Of a stretch of DNA of 64,000 nucleotides, positions 9,669 through 58,856 are shown piece after piece. The position numbers and the translations under genes are program-made. How positions within the stretch are numbered: position 1 is the stretch's first letter; every line of letters starts with the position of its first letter. Below the pieces are notes generated by a model that did not search any database, was not told where the DNA came from, and worked only from the letters and a program-made list of their open reading frames with translations. This DNA comes from Burkholderiaceae bacterium. GTDB taxonomy: Bacteria; Pseudomonadota; Gammaproteobacteria; Burkholderiales; Burkholderiaceae_C. The stretch covers positions 1 through 64,000 of the forward strand of contig JAFALA010000032.1 of assembly GCA_019234815.1 (NCBI GenBank), written 5' to 3'.

Positions 9669-12600
9669 ATGTGGATTGTTCGAATAGCCTTACAGAGGCC
9701 CTACACCTTCATCGTGATGGCCATCATGATCCTGCTGGCCACGCCGCTGGCGGTGATGCGCACCCCGGTGGACGTGCTGCCCGAAATCGATATTCCCGTG
9801 ATCAGCGTGATCTGGAACTACACCGGATTGTCGCCCCAGCAAATCGGCGACCGCATCTCGCAGGTTCACGAGCGTGTGCTGACCACCACGGTCAACGACA
9901 TCGAGCACATCGAGTCGCAATCGCTGACCGGGATCGCCGTCATCAAGATCTACTTTCAGCCCAACGCCAACATCCAGACCGCCATCGCCCAGGTGGTGTC
10001 GGTCTCGCAGGCCGTGCTGCGTCAGATGCCGCCCGGCATCACGCCGCCGCTGATCATCAAGTACACCGCATCCAGCATTCCGGTGATCCAGGTCGGCCTC
10101 TCCAGCAAGACCATACCCGAACAGTCCATGTTCGACGCCGCAACCAATGTGCTGCGTCCGCAGTTGGTGACCATTCCCGGGGCAGCCATTCCCTATCCCT
10201 ACGGCGGCAAGCAGCGCGTCGTGTCGGTGGACATCGATCCCAAGGCCCTGCTGGCCAAGGGCCTGAGCTCCTCCGACGTCGTCAATGCCGTCAACACGCA
10301 AAACCTGACCCTGCCCTCCGGCACCGCCAAGATCGGCGACATCGAATACAGCGTCGACACCAACGCCTCGATCGCCTCCATCGCGGCGATGAACAAGATC
10401 CCGGTCAAGACCGTCAAGGGCTCGACCATCTACCTCGGCGAGGTGGCCCACGTGCGCGACGGCTTCACGCCGCAGACCAACGTGGTGCGCAAGGACGGCC
10501 AGCGCGGCATGCTGCTGTCGGTGTTGAAAAACGGCGGCGCCTCCACGCTGGACGTGGTGGACGGCATCAAGGCCAAGATGCCCTCGGTGCTGCCCACCCT
10601 GCCCGAGGGCCTGGACGTCAAGCTGCTGGCCGACCAGTCGGTGTTCGTCAAGACGGCCATCCAGGGCGTGATTCACGAGGCCCTGATCGCCGCCGTGCTG
10701 ACGGCCGTGATGCTGCTGCTGTTCCTGGGCAACTGGCGCACCACCTCCATCATTGCCATTTCCATTCCGCTGTCGATCTTCTGCTCGGTCGTGCTGCTGC
10801 ATGCCATCGGCGAGTCGATCAACATCATGACCCTGGGCGGCCTGGCGCTGGCGGTGGGCATCCTGGTGGACGACGCGACGGTGACCATCGAGAACATCGA
10901 GCGCCACCTTCACATGGGCTCCGAGCTCTACACAGCCATCCTTGACGGCGCCGGCGAAATCGCCGTGCCGGCGTTCGTGTCGACGCTGTGCATCTGCATC
11001 GTGTTCGTGCCCATGTTCTTCCTGCAGGGCGTGGCGCGCTACCTGTTCGTGCCCCTGGCGGAGGCGGTGGTGTTCGCCATGCTGGCGTCCTACCTGCTGT
11101 CGCGCACGCTGGTGCCGACCCTGGCGCTGATGCTGATGGGCCACCAGGGCCGCCGCGGCCGCATCGACCGTGTCATCGACGCCATCCACCAGGCCTTCAA
11201 CACGCGCTTCGAGAGGCTGCGCGCCGGCTACGTGCTGCTGCTGAGCCATCTGCTGACGCACCGGCGCAGTTTCGTGAGCGCCTTCCTGGGCTTTTGCGTG
11301 CTCTCGTGCGGGCTCTACGGACTGATGGGCCGCGACCTGTTCCCCAGCGTCGATACCGGGCAGATCAAGCTGCACATGCGCGCCCCGACAGGCACCCGCA
11401 TCGAGCGCACGGCGGTCCTGGCCGACCAGGTGGAAAGCGTCATCCGCGAGGTGATTCCAGCCACCGAGCTCGAAACCATCATCGACAACATCGGCCTGCC
11501 CTACAGCGGCATCAACCTGTCCTACAGCACCTCGGGCACCATCGGCACGCTGGACGCCGAGATCCTGATCTCCCTCAAGCCCGGGCACCAGCCCAGCGAG
11601 CACTACATCGAGGCGCTGCCGGAGCGCCTGAAGCAGCGCTTCCCCGAGCTGGAATTCTTCTTCCAGCCCGCCGACATCGTCACGCAGATCCTGAACTTCG
11701 GCACGCCGGCCTCCATCGACGTGCAGATCACCGGCGCGCGCTACGAAGACAACCAGCGCCTGGCCGGCGAGCTGGCCGCCAAGATCAACCAGATCGCAGG
11801 TGCCGCCGACGTGCATGTGCACCAGCGCCTGGACGGGCCCTCGCTGCAGCTCGACATGGACCGCACCCGCCTGCAGACGCTGGGCCTGAACCCCAACGAC
11901 GTGGCGCAGAACATCCTGCTGCCGCTCTCGGGCAGCGCGCAGACGGCGCCTTCGTTCTGGCTCAACCCCAGCAACCGCGTGGTCTACAACCTGACCGTGC
12001 AGGCGCCGCAGTACAAGATCAGCTCGCTCGACGAACTGCTGCAGCTGCCGGTCAAGGGCGCGGGCACTGCTTCGCCCGACAGCACGCCGCAGGTGCTGGG
12101 CAACCTGGTGTCGGTATCGCCGTCGCGCTCCTATGGCGTGATGTCGCGCTTCAACATCCAGCCCGTGATCAACATCTACGCCAACGTGCGCGGCCGTGAC
12201 CTGGGCTCGGTGGCCAAGGCCGTGCAGGCCATCATCGACGAGGCCCGGCCGGGCCTGCCCAAGGGCAGCCAGATCGCACTGCGCGGCCAGGTGCAGACCA
12301 TGCAGGCCTCCTACCTGGGCCTGGGCGTCGGCCTGCTCGGCGCCATCGTGCTGGTCTATCTGCTGATCGTGGTCAACTTCCAGTCCTGGCTGGACCCCTT
12401 CATCATCATCACCGCCCTGCCCGCGGCGCTGGCCGGCATCGCCTGGATGCTGGTCCTGACCAACACGGGCCTGAGCGTGCCGGCCCTGACCGGCGCCATC
12501 ATGACCATGGGCGTGGCCACGGCCAACAGCATTCTGGTGGTGTCGTTCGCGCGCCAGCGCATGAACGAGGGCCTGGCGCCGCTGGCGGCGGCGCTGGAAG

Positions 12601-12857
12601 CCGGCGCCACCCGCCTGCGCCCCGTGCTGATGACGGCGCTCGCCATGATCCTGGGCATGATCCCCATGGCCATAGGCCTCGGCGAAGGCGCTGAACAGAA
12701 TGCGCCGCTGGGCCGCGCCGTGATCGGCGGCCTGCTGTTCGCCACCTGCTCCACCGTGCTGTTCGTGCCGGTGGTGTTCGCCTCATTCCATCGTTGGCTG
12801 GCGCATCGAAACGCCCACAAACTCGCCGCCGCCAACCCCATTGCTTCGGACGCATGA
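9669..12857 (+). CDS. RND efflux transporter permease subunit (AcrB/MdtB superfamily)
   Basis: 1062 aa; 'GLALAVGILVDDATVTIENIERHL', 'MTALAMILGMIPMAIGLGEGAEQNAPLGRAVIGGL'. Confidence 0.95.
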   Translation: MWIVRIALQRPYTFIVMAIMILLATPLAVMRTPVDVLPEIDIPVISVIWNYTGLSPQQIGDRISQVHERVLTTTVNDIEHIESQSLTGIAVIKIYFQPNANIQTAIAQVVSVSQAVLRQMPPGITPPLIIKYTASSIPVIQVGLSSKTIPEQSMFDAATNVLRPQLVTIPGAAIPYPYGGKQRVVSVDIDPKALLAKGLSSSDVVNAVNTQNLTLPSGTAKIGDIEYSVDTNASIASIAAMNKIPVKTVKGSTIYLGEVAHVRDGFTPQTNVVRKDGQRGMLLSVLKNGGASTLDVVDGIKAKMPSVLPTLPEGLDVKLLADQSVFVKTAIQGVIHEALIAAVLTAVMLLLFLGNWRTTSIIAISIPLSIFCSVVLLHAIGESINIMTLGGLALAVGILVDDATVTIENIERHLHMGSELYTAILDGAGEIAVPAFVSTLCICIVFVPMFFLQGVARYLFVPLAEAVVFAMLASYLLSRTLVPTLALMLMGHQGRRGRIDRVIDAIHQAFNTRFERLRAGYVLLLSHLLTHRRSFVSAFLGFCVLSCGLYGLMGRDLFPSVDTGQIKLHMRAPTGTRIERTAVLADQVESVIREVIPATELETIIDNIGLPYSGINLSYSTSGTIGTLDAEILISLKPGHQPSEHYIEALPERLKQRFPELEFFFQPADIVTQILNFGTPASIDVQITGARYEDNQRLAGELAAKINQIAGAADVHVHQRLDGPSLQLDMDRTRLQTLGLNPNDVAQNILLPLSGSAQTAPSFWLNPSNRVVYNLTVQAPQYKISSLDELLQLPVKGAGTASPDSTPQVLGNLVSVSPSRSYGVMSRFNIQPVINIYANVRGRDLGSVAKAVQAIIDEARPGLPKGSQIALRGQVQTMQASYLGLGVGLLGAIVLVYLLIVVNFQSWLDPFIIITALPAALAGIAWMLVLTNTGLSVPALTGAIMTMGVATANSILVVSFARQRMNEGLAPLAAALEAGATRLRPVLMTALAMILGMIPMAIGLGEGAEQNAPLGRAVIGGLLFATCSTVLFVPVVFASFHRWLAHRNAHKLAAANPIASDA

Positions 12858-14047
12858 CCATGACACACGAACGCCACACCCAGCAGGGCCTGCCTGAAAT
12901 GAAGCTGCACGACGACCAGCAGCACCTCCATCGCGAGCGCGTGGTCAAACACACGCGCCGGATCGCCTTTGTCATCGCTGCCCTGCTCCTGGGCGGCCTG
13001 GCGCGCACCTTGTATGCGCGCTGGGATGAATCCAAGCAACTGGAAGCGCGCGTGCACGAAAACGCCGTGCTCCACGTCCGAACCGTTCATCCGGGCCATG
13101 CAGGCGACGATGGCAAGGTTTCGCTGCCCGGCACGCTGCAGGGTCAGATCGAAGCGCAGATCTATGCGCGCGCCGCCGGCTACGTGAGCCACTGGTACAA
13201 GAACATTGGCGCCCAGGTCAAACGCGGCGAGGTGCTGGCCACGCTGGACATCCCGGAAGTGCAGCGCCAGGTTGACGAAGCAGCCGCGAACTACGAACTG
13301 GCCAAGACGGCGTTTGAACGCTGGAAGCGCCTGCGCGCGGACGACGCCGTTTCGCAGCAGGAACTCGACGAGAAGCAAGGTGCCTACAAGCAGGCCGAAG
13401 CCGTGCTGCGCCGCCTGCGCGAGCAACTCTCGTACGGCCAGGTGCTGGCACCGTTCGACGGCATCGTGACGAAGCGCAATGTCGACGTCGGCGATCTGGT
13501 CAACGCTGGCAATGGCGGCGCGGCCCAGGTGCTGTTCAGCATGGCCCAGAGCGACAAGCTGCACGTGTACTTCTACGTCCCGCAAGACCTGGCACCGCTT
13601 GTGCACGTGGGCGACAGCGTGGACATTGCCCCGACCGATCATCCCGACCAGGTCGTGCAGGCCCGCGTGTCGCGCACGGCGGGCGCCATCGACATGGCCA
13701 CGCGCACCCTGCAGGTGGACGTCGATCTGGACAACAAGAGCACGCACTGGCTGCCCGGCAGCTATGTCGAGGCGGCATTCAAGCTCAACAACAGCCAGGG
13801 TCTGGCCCTCCCCACCAACACCCTGCTGTTCAACGCCAAGGGCGTCGAGGTGGCGGCCGTGGTCGACGGCAAGGTCAAGCGTCAACTGGTGGTGCTGGGC
13901 ACCGACCATGGCCGCACCGTCGACGTTCGCAGCGGCCTGACTGCGGCCACGGAGGTCATCATGAACCCGCCCGATTCGATTGCGGAGGGCCAAAGCGTCA
14001 GCGTCGAGAAACCCGAGGCCGCCGCATCTTCGGTGCGTGGGGAATGA
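12854..14047 (+). CDS. RND efflux periplasmic adaptor subunit (membrane fusion protein)
   Basis: 'GTLQGQIEAQIYARAAGYVSHWYKNIGAQVKRGEVLATLDIPEVQRQV' MFP lipoyl half-motif; ATGA overlap with upstream permease. Confidence 0.93.
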   Translation: MTMTHERHTQQGLPEMKLHDDQQHLHRERVVKHTRRIAFVIAALLLGGLARTLYARWDESKQLEARVHENAVLHVRTVHPGHAGDDGKVSLPGTLQGQIEAQIYARAAGYVSHWYKNIGAQVKRGEVLATLDIPEVQRQVDEAAANYELAKTAFERWKRLRADDAVSQQELDEKQGAYKQAEAVLRRLREQLSYGQVLAPFDGIVTKRNVDVGDLVNAGNGGAAQVLFSMAQSDKLHVYFYVPQDLAPLVHVGDSVDIAPTDHPDQVVQARVSRTAGAIDMATRTLQVDVDLDNKSTHWLPGSYVEAAFKLNNSQGLALPTNTLLFNAKGVEVAAVVDGKVKRQLVVLGTDHGRTVDVRSGLTAATEVIMNPPDSIAEGQSVSVEKPEAAASSVRGE

Positions 14048-15519
14048 AACTCGCCATGATCCGCACCTCCCCCATTTCCGTGCGTGCAGCCGCCAGCATG
14101 CTGATCCTGGGCCTGTGCTCGGCCTGTTCCACCGTGGGGCCGAACTATGAGCGGCCACAGCTGGAGCTGCCCGCCAACTGGAAAGCGCTACCGGCGGCGG
14201 ACGAGTCCCGCTGGCACATCGCCGCACCGGCTGACGCAGCGCCCAGGCATGACTGGTGGGTCGTCTATGGCGACCCGGTGCTGAACGACCTGATGGATCG
14301 CTGCGTGGCCCGCAACTACAGCCTGCAGGCCGCGCTGACGCGCCTGGACCTGGCCCAGGCGCAAATCGCGATTCGGGGTGCGGCAGGCACGCCCCAGGTG
14401 CAAGCCGGCGCCACGGCGCAGCGCAGCCGCATTTCGGCCGACCGCCCCTTGGCCAACTATGCCGTGCCCAACCAAAGCACGGTGCAGAACGACTTCAAGC
14501 CCAGCCTTTCGGTCAGCTACGAATTCGACTGGCTGGGCCGCATCCGCCGCGATGTCGAAGGCGCCCGCGCCAGCGCGGAACAGACGCAGGCCGACATCGA
14601 GAACCTCCGTCTGCTATTGACGGCGCAGCTGGCGTCGAGCTACTTTACGCTGCGCCAGGCCGACCAGGAACAGGAGGTGGTGCAGGCTAACCTTGTGCTT
14701 CAGCGCAAGGTGCTCGACCTTCAAGTCAAGCGGCACCAACTGGGGTCGGCCACGCAAGTCGACCTGGAGCAGCAGCAAGCGCTCATCACCTCGACGCAGG
14801 CGCAGCTGGACCTGCTCAAGGCGCAGCGCGCGCAGCAGGAAAACGCCATTGCCACCTTGACAGGCACGCCGGCCGCCGAATTCACCCTTTCGGCCAGCGA
14901 CCGCGTCACCGCCGTGCCCGCCCTGCCCGCCGGTCTGCCCAGCACCTTGCTGGAGCGCCGCCCCGACGTGGCCTCCGCCGAACGGGCCATGGCGGCGGCC
15001 AACGCTCAAATCGGCGTGAACCAGGCCGCGCGCTATCCCAACCTGATGCTGGCGCCGAATGTGGGCGGCTTTGAATCGAACACGCTCAGCCACTTGATCT
15101 CCACGCCGGCATTGATCTGGTCGCTCGGCATTGGCAGCTCCATGACGCTGTTCGACGGCGGGCGCATCGATGCGTCCGTCAATCAGGCCAAGGCGGCTTA
15201 TGCCGGCACCGTCGCCAGCTACCGTCAGACCGTGCTGGCGGCGGTCGAGGAGACGCAGACAGCCCTGAGCAATCTGCAGCAGATGGCGCAGGCGGTGCGC
15301 GATCAGGACGAATCCGTCCGTCATCAAGACCGTGCCTTCCAGATCGGCCTGCTGCGTTATCGCGAAGGCCTGGACAACACGCTTCAACTCGCCGTTTCAG
15401 AGCAAAACCTGTTGACTGCCCAACGCAGCCAAACGCAGTTGCACGGCACTCAGCTGCAGTATTCCGTCACGCTGATCAAGGCCCTGGGCGGCGGCTGGGC
15501 GGGGCTGCACCAGCCTTGA
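14044..15519 (+). CDS. RND outer-membrane factor lipoprotein (NodT/OprM family)
   Basis: 'LCSACSTVGPNYERP' lipobox and family start; 'LERRPDVASAERAMAAANAQIGVNQAARYP' OMF repeat motif; ATGA overlap. Confidence 0.95.
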   Translation: MKLAMIRTSPISVRAAASMLILGLCSACSTVGPNYERPQLELPANWKALPAADESRWHIAAPADAAPRHDWWVVYGDPVLNDLMDRCVARNYSLQAALTRLDLAQAQIAIRGAAGTPQVQAGATAQRSRISADRPLANYAVPNQSTVQNDFKPSLSVSYEFDWLGRIRRDVEGARASAEQTQADIENLRLLLTAQLASSYFTLRQADQEQEVVQANLVLQRKVLDLQVKRHQLGSATQVDLEQQQALITSTQAQLDLLKAQRAQQENAIATLTGTPAAEFTLSASDRVTAVPALPAGLPSTLLERRPDVASAERAMAAANAQIGVNQAARYPNLMLAPNVGGFESNTLSHLISTPALIWSLGIGSSMTLFDGGRIDASVNQAKAAYAGTVASYRQTVLAAVEETQTALSNLQQMAQAVRDQDESVRHQDRAFQIGLLRYREGLDNTLQLAVSEQNLLTAQRSQTQLHGTQLQYSVTLIKALGGGWAGLHQP

Positions 15520-18649: not shown

Positions 18650-21343
18650 ATGGGCAATGCAGTAACGCCATCCAATCCAAGCACCGACAAAAGGTTTGAT
18701 CCATCGGCCTGGCGCAATCGTGCCAGGCGCTACGTCGTCTACGGAGGCGTGTTTCTTTCCATCGTGCTGACGCTTGCCATCGCCGTGGCGGCGATCGACC
18801 AATTGCGCGACATGGCCAGGCAACGGGCCATATTGAGCACCCAGAACCTGGCCTCTTCCGCGACGCTGACATTCGACAGCATCATCGACACCATCGATGG
18901 CGCCTTGCTCAGCGCCAAGGACGAGATTGAGGAACAGGTGGCGTCCAGGTCGAAATTCAAGCAGTCGATCTCCGAATTCCTGGCGCAACAGCAGAGCCAT
19001 CTGCCCGTCGTGTCCTTTGTTCGAGCCACCAACGAATTTGGCGACGTCATCGAAGGCGCCGGCATCAAGACGCCTTACATCCGCATTGCCGATCGCGACT
19101 ACTTCTCCAGGCAACGCGACAACCCCAACGCGGGGCTGGTGGTGGGCACGCCCATCTTCAGCCGAATCAACCACCGCTGGGCCTGGGTGTTTTCACGGCG
19201 CATCAACAAGCCCGACGGGTCTTTTGGCGGCGTGGTCTATGCCACGCTGTTGATCGACGGGATCGACCGGGTGCTGATGCAGATCAAGTTGGTCGAAGGC
19301 CAGTCCATCACGCTGCGTCACGCCGATCTTGCATTGATTGCAAGCCGCGACGAAACGAAGCATGAACAGCTTGAGGACATCGGCAACAGGGCCGTCTCGA
19401 CCGAGTTCGCGTCCGCCCTGCGCAGCAATCCCGACGAAGGCAACTTCACCGAAGCATCACGGACGATGTCCTACCGTAGAAGCGGCCGGCACGAATTCCT
19501 GATCACCGTCGGCATACCTGACACGGCCATTTTTTCGGAATGGCAAAGGCAGCTCCGCGTCACCTCCATCACGGTGGCCACACTGATCGCCGTGAACCTA
19601 ACCTTGCTGCTCCTGGTGCGGCGCGCCTGGCTGCGCCAGACCCGTGACCTTGCAGCACTCAACGAGGTTCAGGAGTTGGCCAGCCTGGCCAGCTATGAAA
19701 TCAATTTGCAGACCGGCGACATCAAGGTCTCGCGCAATATGTATGCAGTCTTGGGCATAGAGCCGCGCCATGCGATGACCGTGGACAACTGGATTGCCTT
19801 GATTCCGGAGCCCCCTCGCTCTGAAATTCGGAACTACTTCAATCACATTGTCGCAAACCGGCTTCCGTTCATTCGCGAATATCCCATCATCCGCCGCGAC
19901 AATGGCGAACAGCGCTGGATGTTCAGCAAGGGTCAGCTGCACATGGGCTCCAGCGGCCAGCCGATCGCCTTGATGGGCACGCTGCAGGACATCAGCGAAC
20001 GCAAGCGGGCCGAAGACGAGATCAAGAACCTCGCCTATTTCGACAGCCTCACCGCCCTGCCCAATCGTCGTCATTTGATCGACAGCCTGAAACATGAACT
20101 GGCTCAAAACTCGCGACGGACCTCGACCAGCGCGCTGTTGCTGATCGACCTCGACAACTTCAAATCGCTCAACGACACGCGCGGGCACGATGTCGGCGAC
20201 CTGCTCCTGAAAGAGGTGGCTCACCGGCTGAGCAGGTGCACGCGCGAAGCGGATATCGTGGCGCGCCTGGGCGGCGACGAATTCGTGGTCGTGCTCACCG
20301 AATTGAACGAGCACCCGCACAACGCGGCCATGGCCGTCGAAATGATCTGCGAAAAGATTCTGGCCGAACTCAACCGCCCGTATGCCTTGTCAGGACACAC
20401 CTACCACAACACCTGCAGCATCGGGGTGGCGCTGTTCGCCGGCCCGCGGCAATCCGTGGACGAGCTGATGAAACGCGCCGACATGGCGATGTACCAGGCC
20501 AAGGCAGCCGGCCGCAACGCCGTGCGATTCTTTGATCCGGAAATGCAGGCAGCCGTCAGTGCCAGGGTTTCGATGGAAAACGACCTGCGCCAGGCGGTCG
20601 AATTGGGGCAGTTCGTGCTGCACTTCCAGCCCCAGCTCGACTTGCAAGGCCGCGTGATTGGCGCCGAGGCCCTGGTGCGTTGGCAACATCCAGTCAAGGG
20701 CCTGGTCGCGCCGGCCGAATTCATTCCCCTGGCCGAAAGCACGGACCTGATCCTGCCGCTTGGCGAATGGGTGCTGCGCACGGCCTACTCGCATTTGCTC
20801 GCCTGGTCGTACCAGCCGAAAATGACGGGACTGACCCTGGCGGTGAACGTGAGTGCGCGCCAATTCAGCGCGCCGGGTTTTGTCGACCAGGTCAAGGCCG
20901 TGATCGAGCTGGCGCCGCCCCTGTCCGCCCGACTGAAACTTGAACTGACCGAAGGCCTGCTGCTCGAGGACGCAGAAGCCGTGATCTCGAGAATGGTCCA
21001 CCTCAAGTCCGCGGGCGTCGGCTTCTCCATGGACGATTTCGGAACCGGTTATTCGTCCTTGTCGTATCTCAAACGACTGCCGCTGGATCAATTGAAGATC
21101 GACCAATCCTTCGTGCGCGACGTGCTGACCGATCCGAATGACGCCGTGATTTCCAAGACCATCATCGCCCTGGGCCAGACGCTGGGCTTGAATGTGATCG
21201 CCGAGGGCGTCGAATCGCTGGAACAGCGAGACTTCCTCGCGCAGGCCGGATGCCACTGCTACCAGGGCTATTTCTTCAGCAAGCCATTGCCCATCGCCGA
21301 GTTCGAATCCTATGTGCGCCGCCAGAATGCGGCGAACATTTGA
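18650..21343 (+). CDS. Membrane sensor protein: periplasmic Cache-like domain - TM - PAS - GGDEF - EAL (c-di-GMP cyclase/phosphodiesterase)
   Basis: TM1/TM2 flank the periplasmic domain; 'RLGGDEFVVVL' with RxxD I-site (READ-IVARL-GGDEF); 'GAEALVRWQHP', 'DDFGTGYSS', 'LKIDQSFV', 'IAEGVES' EAL motifs. Confidence 0.95.
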   Translation: MGNAVTPSNPSTDKRFDPSAWRNRARRYVVYGGVFLSIVLTLAIAVAAIDQLRDMARQRAILSTQNLASSATLTFDSIIDTIDGALLSAKDEIEEQVASRSKFKQSISEFLAQQQSHLPVVSFVRATNEFGDVIEGAGIKTPYIRIADRDYFSRQRDNPNAGLVVGTPIFSRINHRWAWVFSRRINKPDGSFGGVVYATLLIDGIDRVLMQIKLVEGQSITLRHADLALIASRDETKHEQLEDIGNRAVSTEFASALRSNPDEGNFTEASRTMSYRRSGRHEFLITVGIPDTAIFSEWQRQLRVTSITVATLIAVNLTLLLLVRRAWLRQTRDLAALNEVQELASLASYEINLQTGDIKVSRNMYAVLGIEPRHAMTVDNWIALIPEPPRSEIRNYFNHIVANRLPFIREYPIIRRDNGEQRWMFSKGQLHMGSSGQPIALMGTLQDISERKRAEDEIKNLAYFDSLTALPNRRHLIDSLKHELAQNSRRTSTSALLLIDLDNFKSLNDTRGHDVGDLLLKEVAHRLSRCTREADIVARLGGDEFVVVLTELNEHPHNAAMAVEMICEKILAELNRPYALSGHTYHNTCSIGVALFAGPRQSVDELMKRADMAMYQAKAAGRNAVRFFDPEMQAAVSARVSMENDLRQAVELGQFVLHFQPQLDLQGRVIGAEALVRWQHPVKGLVAPAEFIPLAESTDLILPLGEWVLRTAYSHLLAWSYQPKMTGLTLAVNVSARQFSAPGFVDQVKAVIELAPPLSARLKLELTEGLLLEDAEAVISRMVHLKSAGVGFSMDDFGTGYSSLSYLKRLPLDQLKIDQSFVRDVLTDPNDAVISKTIIALGQTLGLNVIAEGVESLEQRDFLAQAGCHCYQGYFFSKPLPIAEFESYVRRQNAANI

Positions 21344-21344
21344 G

Positions 21345-21785
21345 TCATTCGGTCAAGCGCGCGTCAATCCAGGCCCGCGCCGACTCCAGCGTCTCGAAGG
21401 CCTGCGCCGGAACGCCGTTCTCGACATAGCATCGCAAATAGAGGGCCGTCATCAAGGCCGCGCCCTCGACGTCGGGGCTCATGACCAAGGCACAAGCCGC
21501 GGGGCTCCTGCCGCTCTGCGCCCGTGATCTGACATTGCGCGTCAACAGCGTCAGCGCGCTCAGCGAGGTCAGGGCGCTGGACTGGAACACCACGATCACG
21601 GCCCATTTTCCCAATCGGATCAATTCGTCCAGCAGCCCGGCAGATTGCCCTTGCAGGTGGTCGATGAATTCGGCATTGAACGGTCCTTGCACCGTGCATA
21701 TCAGCACCTGGCCATCCAGCCGGAACTGGAAACGGCCAAGCACCGGAGAACGTCCGTCGCTGCCGTCGTCCAAGCTGCCCGCCAT
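21345..21785 (-). CDS. Small hypothetical protein, SpoIIAA/STAS-like
   Basis: 'FQFRLDGQVLICTVQGPFNAEFIDHLQGQSAGLLDELIRLGKWAVIVVFQSSALTSLSALTLL' beta-alpha pattern; in-frame start inside the 21345..22019 ORF; stop 1 nt from the convergent GGDEF/EAL stop. Confidence 0.6.
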   Translation of the reverse strand: MAGSLDDGSDGRSPVLGRFQFRLDGQVLICTVQGPFNAEFIDHLQGQSAGLLDELIRLGKWAVIVVFQSSALTSLSALTLLTRNVRSRAQSGRSPAACALVMSPDVEGAALMTALYLRCYVENGVPAQAFETLESARAWIDARLTE

Positions 21786-21867
21786 CGATGCCACGCCCGA
21801 TCTCCCCACTTGCCGTCCGCCAACCTCATGGCCCGGCCTCAATGTAGCCGATGCGGGTGGCCAAAAG

Positions 21868-21893
21868 AAAAAGCCCCGACGCGAAGTCGAGGC
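21868..21893 (-). terminator. Intrinsic terminator on the minus strand (end of the RND / RidA-EIIA transcript)
   Basis: Minus-strand GCCTCGAC-TTCGC-GTCGGGGC followed by TTTTTC (8-bp stem with one G-U). Confidence 0.7.
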
Positions 21894-22072
21894 CGAATGT
21901 CCGCCAAGCAAGTCAGACGGACGCCCTGCAACAGCAGGGAGCGTTTCCAGAAGGTTGACGCTCAGGGGCAGTCTAACGAGCCGATGTAGGCCGCCTACCC
22001 CTGAAATAAGGGTGAGCAACCCCGCATATGGGTGGCATCCTCGTCCCGGGCGCAGCCGCCTAGCCCTGTCCC

Positions 22073-22939
22073 TTATCGTTTGGCTGCGCGAGCGCTGTCG
22101 CCCTTGGCTACCGCACTCAGGAAAAGTTCCGCAACGGATCGCACGTCCTTGAGCTGGCGCAGTCGTCCCCGTGAGGTCGGATCGGACAGGAGTTCGGCGA
22201 TCTGGGCGAACAGCTGCAGATGCAGATGGGGATCCTGGCGCGGCATCAGCAGTGCAAGCACCAGGTCGACAGGCTCATCGTCAGGCGCATTCAGCGCGAT
22301 GGGTTTGGCCAGCCGCAGGAAGATGGCCATGGGCTTGTCCAATTTGTCGACCCGCGCATGCGGCAAGGCCACGCCGTGCCCGAGCGACGTGGAGCCCAGC
22401 GCCTCGCGCTCCAGCAAGCCTTCGCGAACCTCCTGCTCGCTCAAGCCGCTGCGGCGGGCCAGTCGGTTCGCCAGCATCTGGCGCAGGCTGCGCTCGTCGC
22501 TCACGCGCAGGTTAAGCTCCACGTCCTGTGCGCGTATCCACTGCCCCATCGCACCGGCGTCAAATTGCCCGTCGACATTCTTCACCGCGGCCTGCACCTC
22601 AATCTCGACCTTGTAGGCCGGGTTGATCAAGTGCGTGGCAATGGTCGTGCGCGCCGGCGCCTGGCCCGGCTGCACCCAGTCGTCCCAGACCGAATTCATG
22701 GCCGCATAGTCGCCCGCCGACGCGAGAAAGATCCTGACCATGGAGATGTGCTCGCGTCCGGCGCCCGCCTTGGCCAGCAAGCGATCCACGATGCCCAGCA
22801 CCTGCCGTGTCTGCCCGGTGACGTCCAGCGAGGTGTTTTCCGCGACCTGGCCGGAAATGTGAATCAGCCGCGTGTCGGCCACCGTCACCACGGTCATTTC
22901 ACTGAATCTGGCGCCGACTTCAAATCGTTCAATGGTCAT
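22073..22939 (-). CDS. RidA/YjgF-family domain fused to PTS EIIA-Ntr (PtsN-like) domain
   Basis: Residues ~1-120 RidA-like ('RLIHISGQVAENTSLDVTGQTRQVLGIVDRLLAKAGA..ARTTIATHLINPAYKVEIEVQAAV'); residues ~130-285 EIIA-Ntr ('LGHGVALPHARVDKLDKPMAIFLRLAKPIALNAPDDEPVDLVLALLMP'); one uninterrupted ORF. Confidence 0.9.
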   Translation of the reverse strand: MTIERFEVGARFSEMTVVTVADTRLIHISGQVAENTSLDVTGQTRQVLGIVDRLLAKAGAGREHISMVRIFLASAGDYAAMNSVWDDWVQPGQAPARTTIATHLINPAYKVEIEVQAAVKNVDGQFDAGAMGQWIRAQDVELNLRVSDERSLRQMLANRLARRSGLSEQEVREGLLEREALGSTSLGHGVALPHARVDKLDKPMAIFLRLAKPIALNAPDDEPVDLVLALLMPRQDPHLHLQLFAQIAELLSDPTSRGRLRQLKDVRSVAELFLSAVAKGDSARAAKR

Positions 22940-22972: not shown

Positions 22973-24499
22973 TCAAGGATGCATCGCGCCGGATGTGCTG
23001 ACAATCGAATCTTGGCGATTCCACCAACCCCCGCCGAGGGACTGGAACAGCAGCGCGGTGTCGCTCAACCGGTTGGCTTGCGCAATCTGGACATTGGCTT
23101 GCGCCTGCAGGGCGCCCTGCTCGGCCAGTATCACTGCCAACGAATGGGTGTCGCCCAGTTCCAGTTGCCGCCGGGTGATGGCCAGCGTCCGGTCGGCCGC
23201 GCGCTGGTTGTCGATCGCAATACGCAGGGCCTGGGTATCGACCTGTATCGATTGCAGGCTGTCCGCCACGTTCTGGTATGCGCTGATCACGGTGGCACGG
23301 TACTGCGCCACGGCCGCGTCGTATTCGGCGCGCGCCGCCAGTTCGCGGTGCTTGAGCGCACCGGCGTCAAACACCGGCTGGGTGACGCTCGCCGCCAGCG
23401 TCCAGAACCTCGAACCCGGACTGAACAGATTGCCCAAGGTGTAGGCCGACGAACCCCAGGCATTGACCCCCAGCTCGACATTGGGCAGTCGGGCCGCCAC
23501 GGCCACGCCGATGCCCGCGCTGGCCGATTGCAGCTGCGCCTCGGCCGCCAGCACGTCGGGGCGCCGGTCCACCAGCGTCGAGGGCACGGTCAGCGGCACC
23601 TCTTCGGGCAGATGCAGCTGCGCGAGCGAAAACTCGGCGGCCAAGGCGTCGGAAGGCAGGCGTCCCGCCAGGGCCTTGATCAAGTCGCGCTGCAAGGCCA
23701 ACTGCTTCTCAAGGGGCGGCAAGGCCGCCTGCAAGCCCGCCATCTGGGCCTCCTGCAGGATCAGGTCGGTCTGCGCGACCTGTCCCAATTCGAGCTGGCG
23801 GCGGTAGCTGGCCACGATGCGCTGCTGCAACTCCACTTGCCGCCGGGCCGCGTCGATCTGCTCGCGCAGCGCCGCCTCCTCGATCACGGCCACCACCACA
23901 TTGCTCGTCAAGCTCAGGTAGGCCGCCTCCAGCTGCCAGCGCTGGTTGTCGGCCTGGGCCTGCAGGGACTCGACCTGGCGGCGGTTGGCGCCGAACACAT
24001 CCGGCGTGTAGGACACCTCCAGCTGCAGCGTGTGCAGGGTGTAGTAGCTCGCGCCGCTGGACGCCGGACTGGCCAGAGAGTCCGCAATGCGTTGACGCGA
24101 TCCGGCATAGCTGACGCTGGCGTTGGGATAGTACGCCGCCTGTTGCGCCTTGACGTTGTGTTCGGCCGCCTGCAGGGCCGCCTGCGCCGCCACGATCGAG
24201 GGGTTGTTGTCCAGGCTCGCGCGCACCAGCTCGTCGAGCGCGGGCGACTTGAACATTTCCCACCACTTCGCGGGCAGGTCCGCGTCGGCGTGCAGGCGCT
24301 GGACCGGGACCGTATCGCCCGCGCTCAGCGACTCCGGTGCCGGCGACTCGGTATAGCGCTCGGCATGCGCCACCGCGGGACGCTGGTAGTCGGGCCCGAC
24401 GGCGCAGCCCGCCAACACCGCCGCGCACAACACGGCGCACAACACCTTACACAACGCCGCGGCAGGCGCTTTCAAATCAACAACGTTTGCATTCATCAA
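22973..24499 (-). CDS. RND outer-membrane factor lipoprotein (NodT family)
   Basis: 'LAGCAVGPDYQRPAVAHAERY' lipobox; 'LVDRRPDVLAAEAQLQSASAGIGVAVAARLPNVELG'. Confidence 0.95.
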   Translation of the reverse strand: MMNANVVDLKAPAAALCKVLCAVLCAAVLAGCAVGPDYQRPAVAHAERYTESPAPESLSAGDTVPVQRLHADADLPAKWWEMFKSPALDELVRASLDNNPSIVAAQAALQAAEHNVKAQQAAYYPNASVSYAGSRQRIADSLASPASSGASYYTLHTLQLEVSYTPDVFGANRRQVESLQAQADNQRWQLEAAYLSLTSNVVVAVIEEAALREQIDAARRQVELQQRIVASYRRQLELGQVAQTDLILQEAQMAGLQAALPPLEKQLALQRDLIKALAGRLPSDALAAEFSLAQLHLPEEVPLTVPSTLVDRRPDVLAAEAQLQSASAGIGVAVAARLPNVELGVNAWGSSAYTLGNLFSPGSRFWTLAASVTQPVFDAGALKHRELAARAEYDAAVAQYRATVISAYQNVADSLQSIQVDTQALRIAIDNQRAADRTLAITRRQLELGDTHSLAVILAEQGALQAQANVQIAQANRLSDTALLFQSLGGGWWNRQDSIVSTSGAMHP

Positions 24500-27400
24500 C
24501 GTTCGCTCCGTTGTTGCCTGCCCCAGGTCTTGCCTTCGAAGAAGCGCTCCACCGTGTAGTACAGGGTCGGCAGCACCAGCAAGGTCAGGAAGGTCGACAC
24601 AATCAGGCCGCTGACCACCACGGTCGCCACGCCGCGCTGCACATCGGTGCCGACGCCCGTCGCCAATGCGGCGGGCAACATGCCGATGGAGGCCACGGTG
24701 GCCGTCATCAGGACGGGTCGAAGCCGCTCAGTGGCCGCCGCGATGATGCTCTCGTCCAGAGGCAGGCCTTCGCCGCGCACGCGGCGGAAATTGGCCACCA
24801 TGATGATGCCGTTCTGCACCGAGACGCCGAACAAGGCGATGAAGCCCACGGCCGAGGCCACGTTCAGGGTGGCGCCGGTGGCATGCAGCGCAATCAGGCC
24901 GCCCAGTGCCGCCAGGGGCACAACGCCCAGCACCAGCAGGGTCTGCCGCACCTTGCCGAACTGGAAGAACAGCAGCACCGCCATGAAGATGAACACCAGG
25001 CTCAGGATGAACACCAGCCGCCGCGCCGCGCGCCGCTCGTTCTCGAACTGGCCCGCCCATTCCAGGCGATGCTGCTGCGGGTCGAACTTGATCTCGGCGT
25101 CGATGCGCTGCTGCGCTTCGGCCAGGTAGGAACTCAGGTCACGGTCGCGGTTGTCGATGCGCACGGTGATCTGCCGCTCATTGAGCTCGTGCGAGATGGT
25201 GCTCTCCCCGGTCTTGTACGACAGCGACGCCAGCTGCGCCAGCGCCACCTTGACGCCGCCCGTCCCGGTGACGGTCAAGGCCCCCAGGGATTCCAGGTCG
25301 GACTTGGCCGAGCGGGGGAAACGCACGGTCACGTTGTAGATCCGGTCGCCCACGTAGACCGTGGACACCGGCGCACCGCCCACGCCGGTCTGGATCAACA
25401 TGGCCGCGTCGGCGACATTGACGCCGAATCGCGCCGCCGCCTCGCGGTCGATCTTCACGACCAACTGAGGAATCGGCGGTTCCTGGAACAGCGAAGCCGA
25501 AGCGGTGCCACGGATCGTGCGCAGGATGTCGACCACCTGGGTGCCGATGCGTCGGTTCTCCGCCAGGTCAAAACCGTAGACACGCAGCACCAGCGGGCTG
25601 TGGGCGCCGCCAATCATGTCGTTGACGCCGTCGATGATGGGCTGGCTGATGCCGACGTCAAAGCCCGGCAACTGCTGCAGGCGAGCGTTCAAGCGGCGTA
25701 TGAAATCGGCCTTTGACTCCCCCGCAGGCCATTCGCCGTAGGGCTTGAGGCCGACCGGCACCTCGATGTGCGAGGGCGTCCAGGGGTCGGTGCCGTCGTC
25801 GCTGCGGCCCAGTTGCGTCACCACATAGGACACCTCCGGGAACTCGCGCAGGGTGCGGCGCAGGTCGCTGGCCATCTCGCTGGCCTTGTCGAGCGAAAGG
25901 CCCGTGGGCATCTGCACCTGCAGCCACAGGGCGCCTTCGTCCAGCTCGGGCAGGAACTCGCGGCCCACCGTGGCGCCCAGCCCCACCACCGCCGCCAGCA
26001 CCACGGCCGAGGTCACGTAGACAATCCCGGGGCTGCGCAGCAATCGGCTCAATACCAGGCGATAACGCGCCGTCACCCACTCCAGCGGCTTGTTATGGAA
26101 CACCTTCCTGGGCATGCGCAGCGCAACATAGGCCAGGCCAGGAATCAGGGCCAGGGCCGCCAGCAAGGCGCCGAACAGCGCGTAGCCCACCGTCAGCGCC
26201 ATCGGCGAAAAAAGCTTGCCCTCGGCGCGCTCGAACGCAAACAAGGGGAAATAGGCGGAAATGATGACCAGCGTGGCAAAGAAGATTGGGCGCGCCACGT
26301 GGCTGGTGGTTTCCAGCACGTCGTCTTCGGTCAGCGGCTGGTCCGGGATGTCTTCGCGGCGCCGCAGCAGCGCCTCCATCACGACGATGGCGCCGTCGAC
26401 GATGATGCCGAAGTCGATCGCACCCAGCGAGAACAGATTGGCCGGCATGTGCGTGACGTTCATGGCGATGAACACCGTCACCAGCGCCAGCGGAATGACC
26501 ACGGCCGCCACCAGCGCGCTGCGCGGACTGCCCAGGAACAGGATCAGCACGATGCAGACCAGGCCCACGCCTTCCAGCACCGTGTGCGTCACCTTGGTCA
26601 CCGTCAAATGCACGAGGCCGTCGCGGTCGATGTACGGGACCAGGCGCACGTTCATCGGTGCCAGGCGCTTTTGCAACTCCTCGACCTTGGCATGCACGCC
26701 TTCGAGCACATGCGAGGGATTCTCGTACTTGAGCAGCAGCACGATGCCTTCGATCGTGTCGGGATTGGTGTCTTTGCCCAGAATCCCCTCGCGCTCCTGG
26801 TGCCCGATCCTGAGCTTGCCCAGGTCGCGCACCAGCACCGGCACGCCATTGCTCTGCGTCACCACGGTCGCGCCCAGGCCGTCCAGGTCGTGGATCTGGC
26901 CGATGCCGCGCACCACGTAGCCCTGCTCGCCGCGTGAAATGCGTCCGCCGCCGGCGTTTTGCGAGCCGCTGTTGATCGCGCTGACCACGTCGTCCATCGC
27001 GATGCCGTAATGATCGAGCTGGCTCGGATCGAGTTCGAGCTGGAACTCCTTGGTGAAGCCGCCGAAGTTGTTGACGTCGGCCACGCCCGGCACCTGCCTG
27101 AAGGCCGGCATCACGATCCAGCGCTGGATCTCCGACAGCTCCATCAGGTTCTTGGTGTCCGATTCCAGCGTGTAGCGGTAGATTTCCCCGACAGGGCTGG
27201 ACACCGGATCCAGCCCGGGCTGAATACCCGGCGGCAGCGTCACCTGCGAGATGCGCTCCATGATGCGCTGGCGCGCAAAGTAATCTTCCGTGCCGTCCTT
27301 GAACACCAGCGTGATCAGCGACAGCGCGAAGGTGCTGCTGGAGCGCATGGTCACGAGCCCAGGGGTGTTGGCCAATGCGCGCTCGAGCGGCGTGGTGATC

Positions 27401-27591
27401 TGCTGCTCGATCTCCTCGGCGGCAAGACCTGGCACCTGGGTGGTGACCTGCGCGGTCACATCGCTGATGTCGGGATAGGCCTCCACCGTCATGCGGGTCC
27501 AGGAGTAGTAGCCATAAACGACGATGGCCAGCGTCATCACCCACACCAGCAGGCGGCGCCGGAAACACAGCGCAATGAACTGGTTAATCAT
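24496..27591 (-). CDS. Heavy-metal RND permease (CzcA/CusA, HME family)
   Basis: 1031 aa; 'EAYPDISDVTAQVTTQVPGLAAEEIEQQITTPLERAL', TM4 'SLGAIDFGIIVDGAIVVMEALLRR'. Confidence 0.95.
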   Translation of the reverse strand: MINQFIALCFRRRLLVWVMTLAIVVYGYYSWTRMTVEAYPDISDVTAQVTTQVPGLAAEEIEQQITTPLERALANTPGLVTMRSSSTFALSLITLVFKDGTEDYFARQRIMERISQVTLPPGIQPGLDPVSSPVGEIYRYTLESDTKNLMELSEIQRWIVMPAFRQVPGVADVNNFGGFTKEFQLELDPSQLDHYGIAMDDVVSAINSGSQNAGGGRISRGEQGYVVRGIGQIHDLDGLGATVVTQSNGVPVLVRDLGKLRIGHQEREGILGKDTNPDTIEGIVLLLKYENPSHVLEGVHAKVEELQKRLAPMNVRLVPYIDRDGLVHLTVTKVTHTVLEGVGLVCIVLILFLGSPRSALVAAVVIPLALVTVFIAMNVTHMPANLFSLGAIDFGIIVDGAIVVMEALLRRREDIPDQPLTEDDVLETTSHVARPIFFATLVIISAYFPLFAFERAEGKLFSPMALTVGYALFGALLAALALIPGLAYVALRMPRKVFHNKPLEWVTARYRLVLSRLLRSPGIVYVTSAVVLAAVVGLGATVGREFLPELDEGALWLQVQMPTGLSLDKASEMASDLRRTLREFPEVSYVVTQLGRSDDGTDPWTPSHIEVPVGLKPYGEWPAGESKADFIRRLNARLQQLPGFDVGISQPIIDGVNDMIGGAHSPLVLRVYGFDLAENRRIGTQVVDILRTIRGTASASLFQEPPIPQLVVKIDREAAARFGVNVADAAMLIQTGVGGAPVSTVYVGDRIYNVTVRFPRSAKSDLESLGALTVTGTGGVKVALAQLASLSYKTGESTISHELNERQITVRIDNRDRDLSSYLAEAQQRIDAEIKFDPQQHRLEWAGQFENERRAARRLVFILSLVFIFMAVLLFFQFGKVRQTLLVLGVVPLAALGGLIALHATGATLNVASAVGFIALFGVSVQNGIIMVANFRRVRGEGLPLDESIIAAATERLRPVLMTATVASIGMLPAALATGVGTDVQRGVATVVVSGLIVSTFLTLLVLPTLYYTVERFFEGKTWGRQQRSER

Positions 27592-28753
27592 TCAGCAGCA
27601 CCCCGCCACGCGTGACGACCCGCTCGCCAGGCTTGAGCCCGGAGAGGATGCGAACCATCTCGCCATCCTCGCTGCCCAACTCCACCGTCCGCCGGCTGAA
27701 CACCCAGGGGGCGGTCTCGACCAGGACCGTCGTGGTGTCGTTGTTCATCAGCAGCGCCGAGGTCGGCACCGTCACGGTATCGGCTTGCTGAACGGCGAAG
27801 GCCGCGGTGGCGAACATGTTCGGCTTCAGGCGACCGTCCGCGTTGGCGAATTCGATGCGGACCTTGGTCCTGCGCGTATCGGGTTCCAACAGGGGGCTGA
27901 CCAGGCTTACGCGACCATGCCAGGTCTGTCCCGGATAGGCTGCCAGCGTGATGTCCACGCCCTGCCCTTTCTTGATGGCGCCGACCTGGTGCTCGGCAAG
28001 CTGCGCGGTCACCCAGACACGGTCCAGTTTGGCCAAGGTGAGCAAGGTGGCCGTGGGGTCGTTGACGTAACTGCCGGCCGCGACATTCAGCGCCGTCACG
28101 GCGCCCTCGCTCGGGGCACGCACGTCCAGCAAGCGCGACTGCGGGCTCATGCGCCCGTCTCCCAGCAATGTCTTCAACCTGGAACGGGCGCGCACGTCTT
28201 CGGCAAGGGCCTGGTTGTAGCTGCTCTGGGCTGCTTCCAGATCCTTCACGGCGTTGGCGCCCGCGTCCATCACGCCGCGCGCACGTTCCAGGGCGCGCTT
28301 GGCCAGGTCCAATGCATCGGCGGCTTTCTCGGCGTCGGAACGGGCCTGGTCCAGATCCGGCGAGGCGATTTCAAGCAGCACCTCGCCTTTCTTGACCTGC
28401 GCGCCCAGCCCCACCTTGAGCGCGACCAGGCGGCCTGTGAGCGGCGCCAGCACGTTGACCACCTGCGCAGGATTGGCCTCCACCACCGCAGGCGCGCTCA
28501 ATGCGTGCGCACTCGCCTTCACACCCACGCTGGCCACGAGCAGGCGCTTGCGCAGCGGCGACTGCTCGGGCACCGTGATTTTTCCGCCCTCATGAATCGC
28601 CAGAGGCGCCGGTTCAGCCGCCGACGCATCGGCTGCGCCGGCCTGAAACGGGTTCAGCAGCAGGGCCCACAACACAAGCCGGTATCGGGTCGGAATTTTC
28701 GAAATCCAAGGCCTGAATGTTTGAGAGGTGGCGCTGATTTGCGGCATCTGCAT
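27584..28753 (-). CDS. Heavy-metal RND periplasmic adaptor (CzcB/CusB-like)
   Basis: 'LLVASVGVKASAHALSAPAVVEANPAQVVNVLAPLTGRLVALKVGLGAQVKKGEVLLEIASPDL' adaptor motif; overlaps the start of the permease gene by 8 nt. Start trimmed from the 29239 ORF to the signal-peptide ATG. Confidence 0.92.
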   Translation of the reverse strand: MQMPQISATSQTFRPWISKIPTRYRLVLWALLLNPFQAGAADASAAEPAPLAIHEGGKITVPEQSPLRKRLLVASVGVKASAHALSAPAVVEANPAQVVNVLAPLTGRLVALKVGLGAQVKKGEVLLEIASPDLDQARSDAEKAADALDLAKRALERARGVMDAGANAVKDLEAAQSSYNQALAEDVRARSRLKTLLGDGRMSPQSRLLDVRAPSEGAVTALNVAAGSYVNDPTATLLTLAKLDRVWVTAQLAEHQVGAIKKGQGVDITLAAYPGQTWHGRVSLVSPLLEPDTRRTKVRIEFANADGRLKPNMFATAAFAVQQADTVTVPTSALLMNNDTTTVLVETAPWVFSRRTVELGSEDGEMVRILSGLKPGERVVTRGGVLLND

Positions 28754-28969
28754 GCGTCCTGGTTGCGTTGTCGTCAGGCTCCTCGCCATGACGGGCAAGA
28801 AGACTGGCGATTCTCCCGCACATCCGGACCATCGTTCATGATAGAAATATGACAGGACCCTGCCTTCCCCCGGCCCGCGGACCGGGTCGACAACCCCAGG
28901 CCCATTGATGCCATTGGAAGCCACCGGAAATGTGCTAGAAAATGCCATCCACCCGTTCTGGAGGTTTGC

Positions 28970-29212
28970 ATGAATGCACCACACCATCGGCTCGAGGACC
29001 TGTTTGCCCAACTGGGCCTGGCCTCCAGCACCCAAGGCATCGAGGCCTTTCTGAGCACCCATGCCCCCATTCCCGCCGACGTTCCGCTGGCGGACGCGCC
29101 GTTCTGGACGGAAGCGCAATCCAAGCTGCTGAAGGAAGAAATGCTGGGCGACGCGGATTGGGCCGAGGTGGTCGACCAGCTCAACCTGGCCCTGCACCAA
29201 ACCAACGCTTAG
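28970..29212 (+). CDS. DUF2789-like small protein
   Basis: 80 aa 'HHRLEDLFAQLGLASSTQGIEAFLSTHAPIPADVPLADAPFWTEAQSKLLKEEMLGDADWAEVVDQLNLALHQ'. Confidence 0.8.
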   Translation: MNAPHHRLEDLFAQLGLASSTQGIEAFLSTHAPIPADVPLADAPFWTEAQSKLLKEEMLGDADWAEVVDQLNLALHQTNA

Positions 29213-29276: not shown

Positions 29277-30848
29277 TCAGCCCCTCACCGGCGCCGGCGT
29301 TCGGATCAGGTGGTCGAATGCGCTCAGGCCGGCCTTCGCGCCGTCGCCGGCAGCAATGACGATCTGCTTGAACGGCACCGTGGTGACGTCTCCCGCGCCG
29401 AACACCCCTGGCACCGAGGTCTGCCCCTTGGCGTCGACGATGATCTCGCCATGCTTGCTCAGCTCGACCACGCCCTTGAGCCATTCGGTGTTGGGCACCA
29501 GGCCGATCTGCACGAACACGCCTTCGAGCTCGACGTGATGCGCTTCTTGCGTGGCGCGGTCCACGTAGCGCAGGCCGTTGACCTTGCTGCCGTCGCCGGT
29601 GATTTCGCTGGTCTGCGCCCGGGTGTGGATCTCCACGTTGGGCAGGCTCTTGAGCTTGTCCACCAGCACGGCGTCGGCGCGCAGCGCGTCGGCGAATTCG
29701 AGCAAGGTGACGTGAGAGACGATGCCTGCCAGGTCGATGGCGGCCTCCACGCCGGAGTTGCCGCCGCCGATCACGGCCACGCGCTTGCCCTTGAACAAGG
29801 GCCCGTCGCAATGCGGGCAATAGGCCACGCCACGGTTGCGGTATTCCTTTTCGCCCGGCACGTTGACCTCGCGCCAGCGCGCCCCGGTGGCCAGGATGAC
29901 GCTGCGGCTCCTCAAGGTGGCGCCATTGGCCAGGCCTACGGAGATCAGTCCACCGGCCGCTTCAGCCGGCAACAGGCTGACGGCGCGCTGCGCCGTCATG
30001 ACGTCGACCTCGTAGTCGCGCACGTGCTGCTCCAGCGCGGCGGCAAACTGCGGGCCTTCGGTGTGGCGCACCGAGATGAAGTTCTCGATGCCCAGGGTGT
30101 CCAGGGTCTGCCCGCCAAAGCGTTCGGCCAGCACGCCGGTGCGTATACCCTTGCGCGCGGTGTAGACGGCCGCCGCGGCGCCTGCAGGCCCGCCGCCGAC
30201 GATCAGCACCTCGTAAGGCGCCTTCTGCGCCAGCTTGGCCGCATCGCGCTGCGCAGCGCCGGTGTCGATCTTGGCCAGGATCTGCTCGACACCCATGCGC
30301 CCTTGGCCGAAAGGTTCGCCGTTCAGGAAGATGCTGGGCACGGCCATGATCTGGCGCTGCTCGACTTCGGCCTGGAACAGCGCGCCGTCTACCGTCTCCA
30401 CGCGGATGGCCGGATTCAGCACCGCCATCAGGTTCAGCGACTGGACGACTTCGGGGCAGTTCTGGCACGACAGCGACATGAATACTTCGAAGCGGAACTC
30501 GCCCTGCAGAGACTGGATCTGCTCGATCACATCGGCTTCCAGCTTGGGCGGATGGCCGCCGACCTGCAGCAGCGCGAGCACCAGGGAGCTGAATTCGTGG
30601 CCCATGGGGATCGCGGCAAATCGGATGCCCATATCGGCACCGGCACGGTTCAAGGTGAACGAGGGTCTGCGGACCTTGTCGTCAGCTTCGCCGTAGCTGA
30701 TCAGCGGCGACAAGGCCGAGACTTCCTGCAGCAGCTCGCGCATTTCACGCGCGCTGTCGCTGGCGTCCAGCGAGGCCCGGATCTCGATCGGAAGGGTGAC
30801 ACGCTCAAGGTAGGCCTTGAGCTGTTCTTTGAGGCTGGCATCCAACAT
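29277..30848 (-). CDS. ahpF: Alkyl hydroperoxide reductase subunit F
   Basis: 523 aa with N-terminal double-Trx-fold ('[22 protein letters not shown]') and '[32 protein letters not shown]'. Confidence 0.97.
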
Positions 30849-31047: not shown

Positions 31048-31611
31048 TCAGATCTTGCCGACCAGGTCCAGCGAAGGCTTCAGCGTGCTGGCGCCCGGGG
31101 TCCACTTGGCGGGGCAGACTTCACCCGGATGCGAGGCCACGTACTGGGCCGCTTGCACCTTGCGCAGCAGTTCCTTGGCATCGCGGCCGATGCCGTTGTC
31201 ATGGATCTCAGCGATCTTGATTTCGCCTTGGGGGTTCACCACGAAGGTGCCGCGCAGCGCCAGGCCTTCTTCTTCGATCATCACGTCGAAGTTGCGGGTC
31301 AGCGTGCCGGTCGGGTCACCGACCAGCGGGTACTTGATCTTGGCGATGGTGTCGGACGTGTCGTGCCAGGCCTTGTGGGCAAAGTGCGTGTCGGTCGACA
31401 CGCCGTAGATTTCAACGCCCAGCTTCTGGAATTCGGGGTACACATCGGCCAGGTCGCCCAGCTCGGTCGGGCAGACAAAGGTGAAGTCGGCCGGATAGAA
31501 CACGAACACGCTCCACTTGCCTGCCACGGTGGCATCGCTGACGTCGACGAACTTGCCGTTCTGGAACGCCGTGGCCTTGAAGGGCTTGATCTTGCTGTTG
31601 ATGATGGACAT
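31048..31611 (-). CDS. ahpC: Alkyl hydroperoxide reductase subunit C (peroxiredoxin)
   Basis: '[47 protein letters not shown]', C-terminal '[13 protein letters not shown]'. Confidence 0.98.
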
Positions 31612-31710
31612 GGGTGTCACTCCTGTTGGGTGGGAAAAAACTTCAGAACGGAACGAATCATATCGAGTCGTTCAGCGGTGCAGGTTTGATAAAACAAATC
31701 GCGCTGATTG

Positions 31711-58784: not shown

Positions 58785-58856
58785 ACGTTCTCCAGAGTCA
58801 AGAATCAAACATGCTGCAACTATGCGCGGCGAGACTTAGACGTCGCTTAATCCAAT

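Follow-up and report, generated by a model that had tools for sequence, protein, structure and literature searches.

A Rid protein fused to a PTS EIIA domain as the last gene of a ZneA-like RND efflux operon in a Burkholderiaceae genome

Most subfamilies of the Rid family (RidA/YjgF/UK114) have, to our knowledge, no known physiological role. In RidA itself, Arg105 is needed for deaminase activity (PMC4433059, PMC5619798). Two other described systems are close to the locus presented here: ZneCAB, the HME-RND zinc exporter of Cupriavidus metallidurans (PDB 4k0e/4k0j), and PtsN (EIIA-Ntr), which in E. coli inhibits the K+/H+ antiporter YcgO when it is unphosphorylated (PMC11808508). We have analysed a stretch of 64,000 nucleotides (the window) from the draft genome of a Burkholderiaceae bacterium (95% complete, 5% contamination), in which an RND operon of the ZneA kind ends in a gene encoding a Rid protein fused to an EIIA domain. 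In the openly accessible literature we found no report that connects RidA with RND/czcA genes or describes its fusion to an EIIA.

The fusion gene (22073-22939, minus strand) is a single open reading frame of 288 codons (288 aa) that starts 33 bp after the end of the outer-membrane factor gene. It comprises a RidA (Ribonuc_L-PSP) domain at residues 7-119 (22583-22921, minus; Pfam 81.2 bits, cut-off 27.3) and a PTS_EIIA_2 domain at residues 136-274 (22118-22534, minus; 96.3 bits, cut-off 27), the latter with phmmer matches to 4gqx, 3urr and 1a6j. The two are connected in frame, end to end, through a linker of residues 121-135 (22535-22579, minus). Both halves appear to be coding in this same frame, since codon-usage scores favour it (0.33 and 0.29 per codon for the two halves, with negative values in the other frames). 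The 16 codons of the linker score poorly (-0.21); former intergenic DNA would be expected to do so, although the sample is small, and an ATG inside the linker (M131) could represent the ancestral start of the EIIA gene. Structure prediction gave a confident model of the RidA half (pLDDT mostly >90) and a poor one of the EIIA half, because not a single alignment row covered the latter. The expected key residues are present in both halves, Arg97 in a PAR motif (codon at 22649-22651, minus) and His194 in a PHAR motif (codon at 22358-22360, minus). An earlier note on this DNA, made from the letters alone, had described an uninterrupted 288-aa frame with an N-terminal RidA and a C-terminal EIIA, the 33 bp gap to the preceding gene, and the retention of an Arg in the RidA part and of a phosphorylatable His in the EIIA; all of this is confirmed, and each half has its own domain match above the Pfam cut-off. 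Its assignment of the C-terminal half to EIIA-Ntr fared worse, as this half scores 94 bits against 138.7 required by the PtsN equivalog model (NCBIfam TIGR01419) and is 38-41% identical to the PtsN of the host.

His194 aligns with the active-site region (PH motif) of the solved PtsN structures, and both it and a second conserved histidine, His240, match histidines of solved PtsN proteins. The host's own ptsN is a separate gene, located between hpf and hprK. A recent duplication of it as the source of the EIIA half is ruled out by the low identity and by the long branch of the latter. The host genome also encodes EI, HPr and EIIA-Man (on one contig) and HPr kinase; having EI and HPr, the cell therefore contains a phosphate donor for the EIIA half. 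Away from the other PTS genes seen, this genome has a further, orphan EIIA of the PTS_EIIA_2 family (contig C70, 13576-14037).

The RidA half is not an archetypal RidA, with 42.2 bits against the 106.25 of TIGR00004, and falls below the NCBIfam cut-off for RutC too. Arg97, which we take from its PAR motif to be the equivalent of Arg105 of RidA, is invariant among 18 aligned Rid proteins. The RidA tree places the window protein on a long branch (0.35 versus about 0.08-0.11 in three neighbours). Most relative-rate tests, however, are not significant and so lend no support to faster evolution of the fused RidA.

Three genes on the minus strand precede the fusion and form a complete tripartite pump: a periplasmic adaptor (27584-28789; CzcB/HlyD_D23 type by Pfam), its start being approximate, with homology to relatives beginning near residue 157-213 of a long ORF; an HME-type RND permease (24496-27591); and an outer-membrane factor (22973-24499; OEP/NodT type by profile matches). 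The permease scores 891.6 bits with TIGR00914 (CusA/CzcA family; cut-off 701.45). It keeps the DFGxxxDGA motif and has in common with ZneA the acidic residues E136, D172, D602, D654 and D658, presumably the zinc ligands in pumps of the ZneA type. It departs from the motif given for the HME1/HME2 subgroup, DFGX3DGAX3VEN (PMC3637150), reading DFGIIVDGAIVVMEA where ZneA reads DFGIIVDGAIVVMEN. About 180 bp past the fusion stop there is a terminator-like hairpin (21872-21894, minus; a pattern match only) with the longest stem among such matches in the region, which by count are not significant (4 observed, 4.6 in shuffles). The earlier note placed the fusion at the end of a heavy-metal RND operon, and the adaptor-RND-OMF order and the TIGR00914 score bear this out; its minus-strand terminator at 21868-21893 is upheld insofar as a hairpin is found there, but not by the number of such matches in the region. 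Around the operon, we observed an ORF with no Pfam or NCBIfam match after it (21345-22019, minus), a GGDEF-EAL protein with PAS and cache domains near its end (18650-21343, plus), and AhpF and AhpC type genes upstream of it (29277-30848 and 31048-31620, minus). Further away, the window holds a second RND pump (ACR_tran; 9669-12857, plus) with its own outer-membrane factor (14044-15519, plus), and an Rfam scan of the window yielded one tRNA only.

The association of RidA with this kind of pump recurs well beyond the window. A scan of genome contigs gave 21 loci, in 10 of which a stand-alone ridA, with 55-73% identity to the RidA half of the window protein, comes immediately after a complete adaptor-RND-OMF operon, and whole-genome searches added five further independent operons (L082, L083, L084, L087 and L096). 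Hence, at 15 other independent loci, mostly in Burkholderiales, an MFP-RND-OMF operon ends in a stand-alone ridA. Cultured strains that carry the operon include Pelomonas aquatica KCTC 42961 and Undibacterium jejuense KACC 12607. The flanking genes beyond ridA are unrelated among these 15 operons, and none of them has an EIIA gene near the pump. To avoid bias towards RidA, we also searched 401 genomes of the family with the RND protein, which had strong matches in 15 of them. Here RidA accompanied all eight RNDs at least 72% identical (window included) versus none of the seven that were 54-56% identical (ZneA-type); nor is there a RidA within the 7 kb flank of ZneA in C. metallidurans, or at a Variovorax relative. 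The RidA-linked RNDs form one clade (support 100/100), to which the ZneA-type pumps are the sister clade, with 34 fixed differences between the two, and the RND-linked RidAs likewise form one clade (support 99/99) versus 25 RidAs that are not RND-linked. Distances among these RidAs are correlated with those among the RNDs (r=0.78, 0/2000 permutations). Given the 8/8 versus 0/7 split, the support for both clades and the correlated distances, RidA is a fixed fourth gene of one ZneA-like pump clade; with no outgroup in the tree, this may reflect either a gain in that clade or a loss from its sister.

The EIIA domain, on the other hand, is found at this position only in the window. No second RidA-EIIA fusion appeared among 101 relatives at E 1e-20, nor, under stricter limits, in 401 family, 399 order, 312 class and 369 phylum genomes (overlapping sets), in 72,556 plasmids, or in one scan each of genome contigs and viral contigs; limits this strict could overlook a distant fusion whose halves score separately. 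The taxonomic spread for which the earlier note proposed a domain-architecture search thus amounts to one genome among all sets scanned, and of the RND linkage that it expected in homologous genomes, the RidA part recurs at the 15 other loci while the EIIA part recurs nowhere found. RidA together with the RND makes up the conserved unit, and the EIIA fusion is a private addition of this genome.

His-rich C-terminal tails (18-28 residues, about 20% His) occur in 7 of the 15 RND-linked RidAs, whereas the tails of the 25 RidAs not linked to RND have no His at all. In the nearest relatives, the tail sits at the position held here by the EIIA domain, which may have replaced an ancestral His-rich tail. 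Besides, a CadR/PbrR-type regulator adjoins two of the three nearest operons: L082 has a divergent MerR regulator above the NCBIfam cut-off for this type, and L084 a 64% identical homologue of it. By eye, an arrangement like that of MerR-type promoters (TTGAC(T/C), a spacer of 19 bases, GANAAT) is seen upstream of the adaptor gene in L082, L083 and L084; a pattern scan, its pattern being too narrow, picked up L083 alone. Neither the regulator nor the operator of these relatives is present at the window operon. The nearest MerR of CadR/PbrR type in this genome is 44% identical and on another contig. A DUF2789 gene (approximately 28970-29212, plus) lies upstream of the adaptor where L082 and L084 have the MerR gene. 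Elsewhere in the window, a MerR-operator-like match with 2 mismatches (58780-58801, minus; allowing up to 3 mismatches, chance would give 0.01 matches) lies where a Do-like protease gene (57168-58808) has its 5' end. Taken together, the His-rich tails and the regulators beside the nearest operons point to divalent metals.

There are several possible explanations for this arrangement. The one we favour, with moderate confidence, is that the fusion would be an accessory protein, located in the cytosol, that serves a ZneA-like efflux system and has acquired a phosphorylation-dependent regulatory domain. One competing view, which we regard as unlikely, is that RidA serves the pump as a metal buffer or chaperone, any enzyme activity being incidental, and that the EIIA replaced the tail and works as a scaffold or phospho-switch. 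The tails themselves speak for this, being of HAHDDxC-like and VHDHAE-like types across three separate branches (L082-L084; L040/L041/L096; L045) and amounting, one tail per branch, to 16 His in 73 residues. However, a His-rich tail is missing from 8 of the 15 members, so metal binding is not common to all of these RidAs, and the retention of Arg97 and other residues of the Rid pocket in every member suggests that ligand binding or catalysis is under selection. That same conservation of Arg97 would suit a second view, to which we also give little credence, in which RidA is simply an enzyme of detoxification, expressed together with the pump (metal stress damaging PLP enzymes or raising cysteine turnover) and the fusion a neutral accident without a role, as its occurrence in one genome and the lack of an EIIA gene near the pump elsewhere might indicate. 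Against neutrality, the EIIA half looks maintained, because the domain is full-length, uses codons as the host does, has kept His194 and His240, and is too diverged from the host PtsN for a fresh duplicate. It is very improbable that a ridA and an adjacent EIIA gene have been misread as one ORF through a sequencing or assembly error (if the lost stop were a single-base error, the EIIA would remain the next gene of the operon), for although the draft is a single one, codon usage in the linker is weak and M131 might serve as a start codon, the two domains meet in frame at their ends and codon usage agrees on either side of the join.

The accessory protein reading builds on the architecture, the operon, the clade-wide linkage, the tails, the conserved residues and the PTS partners in the genome, and may be laid out as follows. 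The operon would encode a ZneA-like tripartite efflux pump, putatively for divalent metal ions, with the clade-specific cytosolic Rid protein as its fourth, conserved component. Keeping the imine/enamine deaminase residues, this protein probably shields metabolism, or acts as a metal buffer, during the metal stress by which the operon would be induced; alternatively, it may sense a ligand. Its C-terminal slot, filled by a His-rich tail in the nearest relatives, would in this lineage hold the EIIA domain, which the EI and HPr of the host would phosphorylate on His194. The Rid protein, and perhaps through it the pump, would then respond to the phosphorylation state of the PTS, so that by analogy the fusion may link PTS phosphorylation to metal efflux. 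A bolder version, which we consider very improbable, is that the C-terminus of a dedicated Rid subunit is an exchangeable input module (metal-binding tail or PTS-phosphorylated EIIA) throughout this pump clade, and that a Rid trimer docks on the trimeric pump and gates efflux by metal or PTS state.

A Rid protein fixed in one clade of metal pumps offers a concrete role for this family and suggests that metal stress may be connected with imine/enamine chemistry or with ligand sensing by Rid. If functional, the EIIA fusion would join carbon/nitrogen PTS signalling and metal efflux in a single protein. Among known systems, ZneCAB resembles the window operon in its RND (about 57% identical, with the same acidic residues and DFGxxxDGA) and in its adaptor-RND-OMF order, but belongs to the sister clade, set apart by the fixed differences and by a locus without RidA. 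The main text of the survey of the Rid family (PMC4433059) is silent on efflux, metal and PTS, and the metal-efflux operon context seen here is absent there. Like other Rid proteins (e.g., the Rid2 member PA5083, PDB 9bjv), that of the window has a Ribonuc_L-PSP domain and the equivalent of the catalytic Arg, but it lies below the RidA and RutC cut-offs and is fused to an EIIA. This in turn shares with PtsN/EIIA-Ntr (PDB 4gqx, 1a6j) the PTS_EIIA_2 domain, the phospho-acceptor His and the second His, and differs in falling below the PtsN cut-off, in not being beside hpf/hprK and in being the C-terminal domain of a Rid protein. The PtsN-YcgO pair of E. coli involves a monovalent cation antiporter and a separate PtsN, without a Rid domain or an RND pump; it is nevertheless a precedent for an EIIA that controls a cation/proton antiporter through its phosphorylation state (PMC11808508).
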